64,000 bases of DNA from Chondrosia reniformis. Taxonomy: Eukaryota > Porifera > Demospongiae > Chondrillida > Chondrillidae. Numbering within the stretch: the first letter of the stretch is position 1; each line of letters starts with the position of its first letter. Positions 22,371 to 32,500 of the stretch are shown here, piece by piece. The position numbers and the translations under genes were made by a program. Where the stretch lies: NCBI GenBank assembly GCA_947172415.1, contig OX359197.1, positions 7,069,673 to 7,133,672 of the forward strand, given 5' to 3'. The notes beneath the pieces were generated by a model, which saw only the letters and a program-made list of their open reading frames with translations, was not told the origin of the DNA and did not search any database.

Positions 22371-23345
22371 GTATAACAACTGTAATCTGGACTACAAAAA
22401 GATACTACCAGATTTAGCATGACTATATACCAGTCCCTAGTAACTAGTAAATCCAAGCTACCACAATTAAGTTGGGGGAGGTGTAATACATGCTTTCCAG
22501 GTACTCTGCATATCCTAATAGATAAGTTTGCCTTGCTACTTGTACATCTTGTTTACTTCTGTATGGCCTACCTTTATTTTATATAGAAAAGTCTCCATAG
22601 CAACCAGGTGCAATTCCAAGGTAGCCATTCAATTGGTAATAAAGTAATCAGTTATTCATGTGGCTCTAACTTGTAGAACAAACTTCTCACATGTAAGTCA
22701 AATGGTATCTTCACCTAGTCAGCTGATCCTGATTGAGATCAGGTAGTTTTCAAAAGCATCATTAAATGAAGAAACAAACATTAATTTGTTGTATGAAAAG
22801 GTGATGTGTGCTATACTTTATGTGCATGTCCTTTTAACAGGACCTACGTATCTGTAACTGCTATAGGTAGAGATACAAGATTATTAAAATTATCATTGAA
22901 ACTTTTCTGTCCAACTGTTTCACTGTAACAGCACATGACAGTGGTTGATGCAATAACATGTTTTGGCAGGATTTGTGTTTGAGCAAGCACTAGGCTAATT
23001 ATAAAGTTTGATGTATGCAATCATAAATAATATGAACTATATCCATTGAATTTTATGAAATTTTAATATCTCCATTTGTAGTGTGTAATAAGAAGACAAT
23101 GTAAACAACTTATCCCTTTTGTTTGAAGCATTTTTAGATATTATAAGGTTTCAAACTGTTCAAATTTGTAATTTGTACATCAAGTACAATTTATATGAAC
23201 TAACATTTGATTATATACACGAGTATATATATGGCTTATTGTGCAACCAATACTTTATTTGCTTTGTACGTATATAGAAGTTGTCATGGAATTAATTATA
23301 TTGTCATGGAAATTAAATATCAGTTACCTAGCAACATGCATAAGA
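22085..23345. repeat. Direct repeat pair (about 170-190 bp) flanking about 0.9 kb
   Basis: 22085-22255 and 23155-23345 share GTAATTTGTACATCAAGTAC, ACTAACATTTGATTA, AATACTTTATTTGCT and CAGTTACCTAGCAACATG in the same order. The unit could be two insertions of one element or LTR-like ends. The middle shows no reverse transcriptase or other protein motif. Confidence 0.7.
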
Positions 23346-23425: not shown

Positions 23426-26400
23426 CTAGATTAATTTAGTGAAGTCACCAACTAACACTCTTATTTTTATAGAGTCCCCTTCAACACAATGCTTATTGAC
23501 CATCCTGCTCCTATCAGATTGCCAGAATGCTTCAAAATCATCACCAAATACATTGTAGAGCAGAAGCCTTCTAGTTACCTTTTCTTTCACCTTGCTTCCA
23601 TCTTCAGCTGTCAGGTAACGAATAGCCGAATGAAACACACCTCCATCCTTCTTCAACAAGTGGCATTTTATGGTTGCAAGAAAAGGCCATTTTAGTTGAT
23701 TATCATACTCCCCAGGGTGCAGATATACGGTAAGGTAGTTGAAATAGTCATTTGCAAAGTTCATACCAACTGTGAGCTTGTAACCATGGTGACAGGAATA
23801 AAAATGGCGGCTCTGCCAATTGGTTTGCATTGACTCCTTCTTTGATACATTTGTGATTATGAAATCGAAAGGTACCACCTGTCCACTTGTGTACGAGATG
23901 AGGTCATGTACCTGATCTGATACTGGTGTTCCTGGAGATAGCTTGGACTCTACAAAAGAATCCTCATGGCGATTGTGAATATTTTCACATTCATGGGTTG
24001 TCCTTCTGCGACTGCTTATATTCCTAAGCTTACTTTTCATATTTTCAAGACTTAACTTTTGCTTTCTATCAGTGAGGTCACCGGCAGAATCAGACTGCAG
24101 CAGGGCCTGAAATTTACAGAGGTGATGTGAGACATCTCTTAGAGCCATGGAATGTTTGTAAGGGCACCCTTTACCAGCGTTGGGGCAGAAGAGCCTTATG
24201 TCCAAGATCCTCTTTTCCAGTTGTATGTCTGACTGGGGCTCCACTCTGCAGCTGCAATGTTGGCATATTGGATTATCCTTGGCACAGCTCCTGCATATTA
24301 CCCTTTTACAGCACTTCTGTGCAAATGGCTCATGGGGGAGATCGTGACAGACATTGCAGAGGTAACCTTGGTATAGGGATGAGGCTGATATGTAAGGTCT
24401 GCCCAGGTAACGCAAGATAACAATACCTGCATTTAAACAAGAAGAATTAACTCTAAACCTTCATGACTAAATTATTAGTACATACTAATATGAATACTGT
24501 AGATATGCACTGACTGAGAAATGCAATTCAATGATAAACCAGTATGACCTACGTATATAATCTACATGAGAGTACAATTAACACATGTATCCATTTGTAA
24601 GCATCAGGAAGTAAAGAGGGAAAAGGGAAATTGCTGGGAATTGAAACCAGACTGAGCTGAAATTGCCACAACAATGCTCCATTCATGTTTTCCTCTTATA
24701 CTAGCTACAAAGAAAGTAATTTTAGCCATTTACACTAATTATTGATTTCATTTATCAGAACAATTGATAATAATGTGCAATAATTAGAATTTTTAGAGAT
24801 TTGAATGTTTTTCAAACAACTCGCGATTGTAGGTTTTCTTCAGCAATGAAATACCCTTATACTTCATTCATACATATACATGAAGTCAGGGCTTCTCCGC
24901 TGGCGCAGTCATCAAAAAAGGGTTAGGTTCTCTAATACCAGCGTTAAAAAGACAAAAAAAGAACAAGTTTGTCTTGCCGACGTTTCGGTCAGGGTACTCT
25001 GACCTTCTTCAGGGCGAAGATGAAGCTAGTGCGAGTATTTGTCATTATATAGCCTTGCATCCCATCAAGTGCTGTCACTGGGATTGTCAGTTGGTGCCCC
25101 AGATCTTTGGTTGGATCCACAGCTTGTGTTCTTCAATGCGGCCATCCAGCATCTAGGCAGCTCCAGACCTCCTTCCCTGTTGAGGGATGGGTGATTCAGT
25201 CCAATGTGGATGGCCTCCTTTATTAGTAGCTCCTTGGCGGTCCTGGCCCGGTCAACCACGGAGACTTCCTCCCACTTGATTGGATGGTGGTTCTTCCATG
25301 CGTGCTCCGCCAGTGCTGACCTCTCCAGTGCTGCCTTCTGACATGCATCTCTGTGCTCCTTCACTCTGGTCTCCAGTCTTCTCACTGTCTCTCCGAAGAA
25401 CCACCATCCAATCAAGTGGGAGGAAGTCTCCGTGGTTGACCGGGCCAGGACCGCCAAGGAGCTACTAATAAAGGAGGCCATCCACATTGGACTGAATCAC
25501 CCATCCCTCAACAGGGAAGGAGGTCTGGAGCTGCCTAGATGCTGGATGGCCGCATTGAAGAACACAAGCTGTGGATCCAACCAAAGATCTGGGGCACCAA
25601 CTGACAATCCCAGTGACAGCACTTGATGGGATGCAAGGCTATATAATGACAAATACTCGCACTAGCTTCATCTTCGCCCTGAAGAAGGTCAGAGTACCCT
25701 GACCGAAACGTCGGCAAGACAAACTTGTTCTTTTTTTGTCTTTTTAACGCTGGTATTAGAGAACCTAACCCTTTTTTGATACATATACATGTATGTATGT
25801 ATGTGTGTATGTATGTATGTATGTATGTATGTATGTATGTATATATGTAGACATATACCACCAAGACATTATATTATAGGCTGTTTTTCTTCAACTATTT
25901 TCTTTATGATTGGAATATTGAAAAACTGAAAGCTTAAGTGAATGTGTTTGTTATCATCAATGTGAATCTAAAAGTAAATTCTCTAAGCCTCTTTTGGAAT
26001 ATGTGCTATATAACACTTAGATCAATGCTTTGTACATTGTGTTTTTATCTATAACAATTTCATAGACATGTTAATCATAAATCTTTTGAAATATGGTGTT
26101 CTAGATTGTTCACATACACACTAACCAGTTGTGAATCTGGATGATACTGATGTCACTCTTGTATCGATGTTAACCCAACCCCACTGCAACTTGTTTAATG
26201 GCAGATTAAGGTTGAGTGAACAGATGTCTTTGTTCTTCACACGAATAACCAAACAACCTGTGGAACTGACTCTACATCCAAATGTGTCTCCTGTCTCCAG
26301 CTGCAACAAGCTCTCTCCCACCCCCAAAGGCAGGGGGAGCTCCTTTCCTTCCCAGCAAAACCTACTTCTCACTATGTACCAAAACTCTCTACTGTCCTCA

Positions 26401-27975
26401 AGGGACTTCCAGCTGTCTATTTTCCTCACTTCCATGGGAGACAGTGTTGTGAAACCAAATGTCTGCAAGCAATGAACAGTATATAACTCTGCGTCATATT
26501 TCAATTATAATTTTTCACATAAATGTTTTCAATACAATTACTCATTCAAATAATTCATATGCATCTACATATATATACACATGAATTTGGCACCTATACA
26601 TTCTAAATAGTACACAAATATTTTACAACATATATACAGCTAATACCTGGAGAGAGCACTTAAAATAACAGTTAATGGGGACAAATTGATGGTATTACTG
26701 TTTAAATACCTTTTAAGGATTAGTGTGACCATTGGTGGCTTCCATGTTTTAGCACATACAGTGAAACCTCTGAATAACCAACATCGTTGGGCTTTTTCCT
26801 TTATTTATAGGAGGTTTTCTTTAATTAAAGGGAGGTTTTGTGCAATTCTCGTTTTTACACAGAAATAATATAGTTTTTATAAATTATATATATATATACA
26901 CTAGTTTATAGTATATGCTCATTATGTTTATATAAATTATACACATAATGTGGGTTTTGTTTTGCCAACAAACCCATCTTATTGAAGGCACTATATATAC
27001 TAATGCACTTTCACTGACCACATAGAGGGTATTGTTACCTTCATTCACAGGAGTACAGGAAACACTCATTCACTTGAGTAACTTTAAAAGGTATATAGCT
27101 ATTTTAGTGACCATATTTAACATACAGAATGGAGCTTAAAGTTCACTCAGCCAAAGTACAACTTTATTATGAAGTAAATCAACCATATACTGCTTATTAC
27201 TGAAACACACCATACTACGTATTTCTTAAATAATATATACAATTCATCATTAATGTACGTACATACTAACTATATATGTTTGTAACAACTACATTTGAAG
27301 CTATAATACATGATCATGAGTTATATTAGAGAGTTTAATGGATTCTTTCATTTATCCTAGCTAATACGTAATATACCCAAACTGATAAAGTAACTTTTAT
27401 ATCTTAATTGAGAAAGGTCTCCCACATTTTTATGAGATTTCATAAATCATGTTAAATATTATGAATGTAGAATTGCATGTTGGAAATAAGGATTTTGCAT
27501 CTTCGCTTAACCATGTAGCTATCAGTAGTCTTAAACTTACTAGATTATAATATTTGGCATTATACCAGATTGTCGAAAAAGAGAAGAAATCAGTAATGAT
27601 TTATATTACTTGCCAAAATCCCAGCATATAGGAAGAATAATACTTTATAGCTAGCATATATGAGTCAATGCAACTTGCATTTAATGTCGCAAGGCGAATG
27701 TATCTACAGATCCATAATAGAAAAGGCAATCTATTGTATTCAGGGCTTACCAATGGATTCCCAAAAACTCTCATCTCTGTGACAACCACATCAAAGGAGG
27801 AACCCGCCGAAATTGGTTGATCTGTGATTACAAGTCCATCCAAGTCATTTATACCACCTAGAGTAAAGTCGTTGAACGTAGCTGCTGTTCCCCCATCGCT
27901 GAGTGATACTAAACCTTGTAGCCTGTCGCTGAATTTGTCAAACTTTTCGACTTTCTTTCCCGTTTTTGTCGTCAT
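23426..27975 (-). CDS. Predicted NHR-RING-TRAF/MATH protein, three exons
   Basis: Exons 27975-27751, 26462-26126 and 24426-23426 join in phase (0, then 1) to 520 codons. Exons 1-2 encode a Neuralized homology repeat (SLSDGGTAA..., ISAGSSFDVVV, then LETGDTFGCRVS, LQWGWVNID). Exon 3 opens with a RING-like Cys cluster (C211xxC214, C227, C232xxC235, C242xxC245), then a TRAF-type zinc finger (CPNAGKGCPYKH...HHLCKF) and a C-terminal MATH domain (HGYKLTVGMNF, LHPGEYDNQLKWPF). Likely an E3-type ubiquitin ligase or signalling adaptor. The join at intron 2 (donor ACTG|GTTAGT, acceptor AAATGCAG) is predicted; otherwise exon 2 would end at TAG 26121 and the TRAF exon would lack a start. If separate, there is an NHR-only gene plus a TRAF gene with a missing first exon. 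Confidence 0.7.
24805..24850 (-). mobile_element. Degenerate Penelope-like tail with hammerhead-like core
   Basis: The minus strand reads ATTG-CTGAAGA, a variable arm, then GAAA and AACATTCAA. It resembles the clearer copy at 28978-29005 (same ATTTCATTGCTGA start and ACATTCAA end). Too short to assign alone. Confidence 0.35.
24979..25012 (-). ncRNA. Hammerhead-ribozyme-like core in PLE arm (minus)
   Basis: Minus order: GCC, CTGAAGA, A, stem GGTCAG/CTGACC (6 bp, 6-nt loop), GAAAC, GTC, GGC. This matches a type I hammerhead: helix I (GCC/GGC), core, helix II, GAAA, cleavage triplet GUC. The core has A in place of U (CUGAAGA for CUGAUGA), which should weaken or abolish cleavage. Helix III is minimal, as in dimer-acting PLE hammerheads. 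Confidence 0.5.
25679..25712 (+). ncRNA. Hammerhead-ribozyme-like core in PLE arm (plus)
   Basis: Exact mirror of the 24979-25012 motif on the plus strand, with the same CTGAAGA change, 6-bp helix II and GAAACGTC followed by GGC. Confidence 0.5.
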
Positions 27976-29513: not shown

Positions 29514-32500
29514 ATGGAGTTATTTGATGTCACTGAAGATCTTCAGCTTCATAATGAGGTATGATTTGCTGTTTTATACAGACTTTCGATAATTTCAATC
29601 AATTGACAGTTAACACTTCAAAGCGACCGGAACGTCGACTTTGCAGCGGCACATGTACCGGGACAGCAGCAAGAAGTTCAAAAGATGGAATCTCAATTAA
29701 CTTTAAAGGTATAGAATTCTCGTTTTATAAAGGCGACCTACGCGATGCACAAATCTTTGAACAATTATCTTTAATACTATAGGAAGTACAAACTGAAAAT
29801 TCCACTCTAAAGGAAGATGTGCACAAACTGGAAAGAGATCTCCGCAAAGCGAGAAATGCACTGAAGGAACAGCAGGAAGCTTTTGCTGGTATATTCTTTG
29901 ATATCCAGAACTGTTATTTATGTAAAATTTAAAATTTGAAATTCTGAATCCAGAATACGTATATATGTCTAAAGTAGGGATGTTATAGTGTGTATGTATG
30001 GTGCAGAGTGCAGAGTGCAGAGTGCAGATTATCTGTGATATAATATGTTATACGTGTTGTTATGCTAGCTCTTGTTAATAGGCTCGGATTTTGGGAGTGA
30101 TAAAATTGCTAGAAGGGTTGTGGAGCTTTCTAAAAGGAATAGAGACCTAGTGGCGCAATCATCAAAACAACAGAGTACAATTCAACAACTTCAAGAAAAG
30201 CTAAACAAGTTATCAGTAAGTAGAGGATTCTCCATATAGTAGCCCAGTCAGTAGAGTTCTCCATATAGTAGCCCAGTCAGTAGAGGGTCTACATATAGTA
30301 GCCCAGTCAGCATATAGTAGCCCAGTCAGTAGAGTTCTCCATATAGTAGCCCAGTCAGTAGAGTTCTACATATAGTAGCCCAGTCAGTAGAGGGTCTACA
30401 TATAGTAGCCCAGTCAGCATATAGTAGCCCAGTCAGTAGAGTTCTCCATATAGTAGCCCAGTCAGTAGAGTTCTACATATAGTAGCCCAGTCAGTAGAGG
30501 GTCTACATATAGTAGCCCAGTCAGTAGAGGGTCTACATATAGTAGCCCAGTCAGTAGAGGGTCTACATATAGTAGCCCAGTCAGTAGAGGGTCTACATAT
30601 AGTAGCCCAGTCAGTAGAGGGTCTACATATAGTAGCCCAGTCAGTAGAGTTCTCCATATAGTACCCCAGTCAGTATATAAGGTATTTGATTTGATGTGGT
30701 AATATTTATTTTGTGTCCATGTATCACCAAGTAACAGTTAATAGAGACAGATCTCTAACACACTTCCTCTTTGCAGAGAACTGAAAATGAAGGCAAAATC
30801 TATAGCTCTGCAAGCAAAAACACAGAAGTTGAAGAATTAAAGAGAAAGGTTATTCTTAAATTGTTGAGTTGCTCTTAGTAAGCAGATGATAGTAAATACA
30901 AGAGCCTGTGTTTTATTGGAAAAGACAGTCATATTATACGCGTAAAGGGGCAATATGTCATGAATATACTAATGTTCAGTCCCATGTGAAATCCCTTGGT
31001 TCATTTAGTTTGTTACAGGACAGAGTTGGCTTCCAATGAATATGTTTATGACTTATAAAAGTCTGATTACTGTATGGCTGGAAATGTTGGCAGGAAGACT
31101 AGTTGGTGGATTGCTCAAATTATGGCATTTGGCGGACAAGAGTTGTTTTCCTATATTCGGTGTAGTTTGGCAGTTGAAATATCGGCAGATTACTCTCAAA
31201 CTGCCAATCCACTAAAATAAATTCCCTGCCAAACTTTCCGTCTATACTGTACGTACGGTATATAATATGACCAGAGCATGCATACTGTATATCTCAATAA
31301 TTGTGTGGAATATGCCAATATACTATACTACCATATACTAATGAAAATGAAATTGTAACTCGTGGAGCAGTTTAGTTATTTATTTGATAAATTCTACATA
31401 TTTTGCATTTATTTGGGACATCTTCACACCGCTCAACAGTTACACAAATCATATAATCTCCTGATGTCATGAGAGATTGGCCAATAAAGAATGCTTTAGA
31501 ATGCGATTTAAGGAGAAATAGCCTTTCAAATGAGGTCGGCATACGTGTATAACGTATACTTTCTGACTGGCAGCCATTTTGATCCCACTGTACCAGTATA
31601 CCAATGTGAGGGTATCCGGTAAGACTTAGTTCCTTGCTTGGACAAACTGGAGATTCATCTACAGAGATGTGTGTACAGTAACACATGTAAATGTATATAT
31701 ATATCTCTATATATACTCATTACTAGAACTCAGCCCTACAAGCTAGCTCTTTCTAACGGTATATACACTTATACTTTTATAGTTGACCTGTGGTATATAT
31801 ATAGGTGTTACACCCACCTTGTGGTAGGTGTGTATATGTTAGATATTGACTTGGAGTCACTCCTGCACTATTAGCAGCTAAAACTCTCATAAAGTATGTC
31901 TTTCCTTTAGTTAACCCAGTCACATTCTGATAGGTCAATTGGTTGCCAGCTGCAATATCCCAAGAATGGTCGTCCCTTCCTTCATGGAGTCTGATAATGT
32001 ATTGGATGTCGCCATTTCTCTCTAATGGCCTGACCAGATTGAGTTCAACTCCTTCCTCAAACGTTCTTGTTACACTGAGAGCTCTGGGAGGTGTTGATAC
32101 TGCAGCAAAAGATACTAAATATCACAACTGAGACTTATCAATGTATTATCCTTCATATTGCACAATATCTAATGGCTAGTCCATTAATTTGTTTTACACT
32201 TTCAAGGGGGAAAACCTTAAGTATTTACGGTGTACATGATTGTGCTTGTATTCCTAAAGATGAATGCCTGTGGTATATATGGAATGGTGCAGATAGACAA
32301 CTGTTTCCTAATACTCTTACAAGTCTCTTCCACTGTGTACTCTACTTCATCTGATGGACCGCTGAGAACTCCTCCATGCACAGCCCAGACCTTGACCCTA
32401 TATTGTCCCCCTGGGACAGCTATTTGCCTCTTTTCAAGGGTATTTCCCTCACTGTTGTATCTTTGGTACCTAGCTTTGATTGGCCTCCCATTATGCAGTC

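Follow-up and report, generated by a model that had tools for sequence, protein, structure and literature searches.

Several described protein families approach the gene described here from different sides. The RING-zinc finger unit of TRAF6 brings in an E2, for example Ubc13, and its MATH domain binds receptor or adaptor peptides. Neuralized proteins carry a small C-terminal RING, a layout that sets them apart from this gene, and TRIM proteins with PRY-SPRY pair a RING ligase with a PRY-SPRY recognition domain, in an order of the two parts that also differs from the one found here. Neuralized repeats (NHR) are described as SPRY-like domains prominent in immunity (PMC8195603); in centipede and oyster they are found together with TIR (PMC5094078), Neuralized copies are recorded in a coral (PMC3750612), and one study deals with NEURL3 and IRF7 (PMC12166272), all according to the portions of these sources consulted. 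PMC2770060, in the portion consulted, reports no complete Neuralized for Amphimedon, and the parts examined of PMC8195603, the one paper found to mention neuralized, MATH domain and TRAF, do not describe an NHR-TRAF fusion. Both modules, NHR and TRAF, are familiar on their own; by title and start of the abstract, their joining in one protein is not reported among the literature matches listed.

The window, namely the whole stretch of 64,000 nucleotides analysed (C9:7069673-7133672), contains three minus-strand exons that, judging from reading frames and splice borders in the window DNA, join in frame to encode 520 amino acids; all three are open and have GT-AG borders. We favor, with a probability of about 0.8, a single predicted three-exon gene whose 520-residue product would comprise (i) an NHR, (ii) a TRAF6-like RING with one zinc finger, (iii) an unstructured linker, and (iv) a MATH domain. 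The main features are the following:

27751..27975, minus strand: exon 1, with the start codon and the first part of the NHR; 75 codons, ending in phase 0 at TTG/GTAAGC
26126..26462, minus strand: exon 2, with the second part of the NHR, ending in phase 1 at ACTG/GTTAGT
24427..26125, minus strand: intron 2, 1699 bases, phase 1
24911..25780, no strand assigned: foldback element, whose inverted arms (24911-25296 and 25395-25780), 386 bases each, match perfectly and enclose 98 bases
23426..24426, minus strand: exon 3, the TRAF exon, encoding the RING, zinc finger, linker and MATH and closing with the stop codon at 23426-23428
24110..24424, minus strand: RING and first TRAF-type zinc finger (exon 3 residues 1-105; mean pLDDT 90.1)
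23435..23887, minus strand: MATH domain (exon 3 residues 180-330)
23254..23259, minus strand: AATAAA, 167 bases past the exon 3 stop, likely to serve the joined gene as its poly(A) signal

The first-pass annotation had proposed that the phases of exon 2 and the TRAF exon are compatible, one base of a codon being completed by two, and this is confirmed by the 520-residue joined frame. The gene is probably spliced in this three-exon way. The exon 2 donor, GTTAGT, deviates from GTRAGT and is directly followed by an in-frame stop (TAG at 26121). Exon 1 has a counterpart in the related copies described below and in the NHR gene L041. Elsewhere in the window, a short tandem repeat at 30433-30737 and a fibronectin type III-like exon at 31777-32121 on the minus strand were recognized by eye.

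The predicted protein contains one NHR stretch according to Pfam (PF07177, 36.0 bits over the joined exons 1 and 2, cut-off 23.3), which passes the cut-off only when the two exons are joined. A profile built from second NHR exons retrieves the NHR of NEURL4/KIAA1787 (2e63, E 4.8e-8) and, weakly, Neuralized NHRs (4kg0, 2yue) and SPSB SPRY domains. Exon 3 displays both features expected of a TRAF, a RING with the first TRAF-type zinc finger and a MATH (TRAF-C) domain. In the predicted structure search, the RING-ZnF1 unit matches TRAF6, TRAF5/6, TRAF2, LNX and RAG1, with TRAF6 among the top fold matches for both this unit and the MATH domain, and the latter resembles TRAFs by sequence too. Beyond the RING, the model of the whole of exon 3 is of low quality (mean pLDDT 57.5), so the MATH fold matches are taken together with the sequence matches. 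Exon 3 residues 104-183, at the position of a would-be TRAF-N coiled coil, are modeled with pLDDT below 50 and no helix. Pfam reports no zf-TRAF in the window protein and no B-box either there (E up to 10) or, at E up to 0.01, in four further NHR-RING copies, and the NCBIfam scan returns no matches.

Sequence alignments show that the eight RING cysteines of the window protein are invariant with five NHR-linked copies, and seven of them remain so in a wider set. The usual RING histidine is an arginine in the window and a lysine or asparagine in the aligned NHR-linked copies, a replacement that would leave the E3 activity of the window protein not assured. A CC-x4-C variant, in which the histidine gives way to lysine, asparagine, serine or arginine, is common to the NHR-linked, SH3-linked and window RINGs, unlike the RING-MATH array rows seen, which keep CGHxFC.

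The genome searched comprises 117,379,552 bases on 15 contigs, and all search counts are lower bounds. It contains at least 18 NHR places, the window included, and 13 of them are followed closely, on their own strand, by a RING-TRAF exon. Contig C7 has four of the five copies of an array at C7:6361-6374k, a single copy at C7:6581k and five more at C7:6951-6964k; C8 and C1 contribute one copy apiece, and the window is the last. Places lacking the RING-TRAF exon are two at C3:8455k, one at C4:7927k, one at C5:861k, and array copy a5, which displays NHR exons with no RING-TRAF exon found within 1.8 kb downstream. The NHR-to-RING junction is in phase 1, with GGT or GAT as the split codon, in 11 of the 12 checked (window included; copy b3, which is in fragments, was left out), the sole exception being copy a3, out of frame and with a truncated RING. 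In the 11 checked copies besides the window, the NHR-to-RING introns measure 57 to 429 bases, too short to suggest separate genes. Intron 1, read by eye, is in phase 0 in a1, a2, a4 and the C1 and C8 copies. The window gene shares this layout, with the NHR in two exons separated in phase 0 and followed by a phase-1 junction to the RING-TRAF exon.

The most direct junction is that of copy b1 (L052:963-2246), a single 428-codon open frame running from the second NHR exon into the RING and TRAF finger: the length of its intron, 57 bases, is divisible by three and no stop interrupts it, so that NHR and RING-TRAF would lie in one protein, spliced or unspliced. In this frame Pfam (E up to 0.01) identifies the RING (21.9 bits, cut-off 21), a zf-TRAF under its cut-off, and no NHR; the NHR half was found by a profile of relatives, in two pieces flanking a DPPNPL-type minisatellite that sits inside the second NHR exon and leaves the frame unbroken. 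In the joined C1, b5 and a4 copies, NHR and zf-TRAF are above the Pfam cut-offs in all three, and the RING passes in two, the third being just under (27.1 vs 27.3). The C1 copy contains eight zf-TRAF stretches, and the family copies read end, by eye, in a coiled-coil-like tail. None of the MATH places in the genome lies near these copies. The presence of about a dozen related NHR-RING-TRAF genes in the Chondrosia reniformis genome lends credibility to the predicted fusion and points to a possible ligase family in sponges.

The phase match itself, offered by the first-pass annotation as evidence for the fusion, is real yet weaker than claimed. The NHR gene at C5:861k, judged canonical by eye, has no RING-TRAF place nearby in the genome search and shows the same two phases as the window (donors CTG/GTGAGT and TTTG/GTGAGC, read by eye), so the match is partly a property of NHR modules. 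By the same comparison, the window donor at 26126 sits at a homologous site and is credible as a real splice site; that a RING-TRAF exon follows it is likely, and it is only the family that indicates this.

The combination of NHR and MATH is peculiar to the window gene, and NHR-RING-TRAF is the arrangement of the family. Of 112 MATH places in the genome, only that of the window falls within 100 kb of an NHR, at a distance of 2.7 kb; every other NHR-MATH pair is separated by 115 kb or more, and the nearest other RING-MATH gene (C7:6719k) has no NHR in about 4 kb upstream. The window NHR exons, strongly diverged, were not listed by the Pfam scan of the genome, and as a query the window NHR found no other NHR there. 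Exon 3 as a query gives 62 matches, SH3-linked and MATH-bearing TRAFs first, with a single NHR-linked RING among them (C7:6958311, E 7e-4); for the RING itself, the top matches outside the window are SH3-linked TRAFs. In a RING tree of 25 rows, hand-picked from RING-bearing frames with truncated and near-duplicate frames omitted and with row SH3_L036 labelled SH3 from its array and RING, 10 NHR-linked RINGs group together at 90/96 and the window RING is unplaced, its end branch measuring 3.09 changes per column. The NHR tree (11 rows, 7 from the family, the NHR exon border being approximate in the b rows) has very long branches and does not place the window NHR in the family. Both trees were considered as proof of common descent, and neither settled it. 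In layout, the window gene would be a MATH-bearing, strongly diverged relative of the NHR-RING-zfTRAF family.

Intron 2 deserves separate mention, since at 1.7 kb it is far longer than in the other copies. The foldback element, apparently an insertion, accounts for 870 bases, about half of it, leaving an intron of about 0.83 kb without the element. By eye, the frames of the element resemble a Penelope-like element fragment; the longest of them has no Pfam match.

The distance between the two parts invites a reading as neighbor genes, in which an NHR-only gene would end at TAG 26121 and the first exon of a TRAF gene would fall in the 24.5-26.1 kb interval; the sequence leaves room for a first exon that is short and non-coding, the exon 2 frame stops immediately past the donor, and copy a5 shows that NHR exons may stand without a RING-TRAF exon in the 1.8 kb downstream. 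We consider this improbable: the other measured copies have gaps of only 57 to 429 bases, one copy has no stop between NHR and RING, and in-frame stops soon past the donor also occur in other copies, such as a1 and C8, and are thus no sign of a gene end. Moreover, AATAAA and ATTAAA are absent from the coding strand between exons 2 and 3, except for one AATAAA inside the foldback element, and the 8 of 28 listed intron reading frames that were scanned contain no Pfam domain. Chance adjacency of NHR and TRAF genes was likewise considered and set aside as unlikely, at about 0.001 for one locus, with the pattern recurring at 13 of 18 NHR places.

A real fusion of separate origin, in which a different RING-MATH TRAF received a phase-1 NHR module in a second joining event, is a possibility of some weight, if not the favored one. 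Forcing the window RING among the NHR-linked RINGs is marginally rejected (p-AU 0.044), the highest identity of this RING (35%) is to an SH3-RING-TRAF, MATH stands beside NHR in the window gene alone, and the phase-1 end of the C5:861k NHR means that matching phases need not reflect common descent. However, the tree test is marginal and the branches very long, relative to the RING, exon 3 begins no more than one residue away from the family position, and the SH3-linked TRAFs seen carry SH3 and RING in one open frame. The exons might instead be relics of a decaying NHR-RING-TRAF copy that yields no working protein, as the very long branches, the foldback element in the intron, the missing Pfam zf-TRAF and visible coiled coil, and the broken state of copies a3 and b3 might suggest; nevertheless, the three open exons with GT-AG borders, the high-confidence RING-ZnF model, and the retention of the eight RING cysteines and the MATH fold make this very improbable.

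As to function, the first-pass annotation envisaged a single NHR and RING-zinc finger-MATH protein combining Notch-type ligand regulation with TRAF signaling. The single protein gains support from the phase-1 junction in ten other copies, the homologous donor and the open-frame copy; the Notch part is unsupported, given a single NHR, a TRAF-like ligase half, and nearest genes by layout that are tandemly expanded. More fitting would be an E3 ligase of TRAF-like or TRIM-like character to which a head for recognition has been added. Specifically, (i) the RING-ZnF would recruit a Ubc13-type E2, as that of TRAF6 does; (ii) the NHR, with its SPRY-like fold, would select what is bound or ubiquitinated; and (iii) the MATH domain would dock on a receptor tail or adaptor. 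The whole would amount to a TRAF equipped with a further head for recognizing targets, so that the ligase could dock at both ends, and it would operate much as the paired RING and PRY-SPRY of TRIM proteins do, with the parts in another order.

The substitution pattern of the family, estimated as dN/dS by Nei-Gojobori with few changes per pair, bears on such a head. Among the C7 copies, dN/dS is 0.85-1.2 in exon 1 (4 pairs), 0.24-0.77 in exon 2 (13 pairs, four with the single C7:6581k copy) and 0.30-0.58 in exon 3 (6 pairs). The C1/C8 pair shows 0.20 in exon 1 and 0.21 in exon 2, which counts against a fast-changing NHR as a general trend. The faster change of NHR than of RING exons in the two C7 arrays is as expected of a recognition head, with the proviso that the numbers are small and that relaxed constraint looks alike.

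Compared with the described systems, the window protein shares with the TRAF family, TRAF6 being among the closest by fold, the RING with first zinc finger and the C-terminal MATH, but differs in its N-terminal NHR and in having neither a Pfam zf-TRAF nor a predicted coiled coil. With the Neuralized family (NEURL1, NEURL3, NEURL4 and Drosophila Neuralized) it has one NHR in common, whereas its ligase half is a TRAF-like RING-ZnF-MATH, its C-terminus is MATH, and there are no further NHR repeats. The TRIM PRY-SPRY proteins resemble the NHR-linked genes in combining a RING with a SPRY-like recognition domain and in their tandem copies, with a recognition part changing faster than the RING in two arrays; in contrast, the sponge genes show no B-box reported by Pfam, place the recognition domain N-terminally, use NHR instead of PRY-SPRY, and contain TRAF zinc fingers or MATH. 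The SH3-RING-zfTRAF genes of the same sponge share the RING-zfTRAF unit, the CC RING variant and the presence of another binding module in front, but carry SH3, in the open frame of the RING, where the NHR-linked genes carry NHR.

In L013, L015, L024, L031 and L034, an SH3-like domain and RING-zfTRAF occur in one open frame, the SH3 being above the Pfam cut-off in L013 and L024 and recognized by eye in L015, L031 and L034. Large tandem RING-zfTRAF arrays also occur at C2:9336-9405k and C3:6636-6737k, many of their members with two MATH domains in frames of about 600 codons.

On a tentative view, possible rather than probable, these genes would be a sponge counterpart of the TRIM-SPRY restriction factors, that is, a tandemly duplicating TRAF-type E3 family whose SPRY-like NHR diversifies toward microbial or self targets, with the window member entering receptor signaling via its MATH domain. 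In this sponge, RING-TRAF units have acquired more than one kind of N-terminal domain, NHR in some genes and SH3 in others, and the family would give NHR a use in which Notch need play no part. The predicted protein, together with about a dozen paralogous loci, would provide a test of TRAF ligases with interchangeable recognition heads in an early-branching animal.
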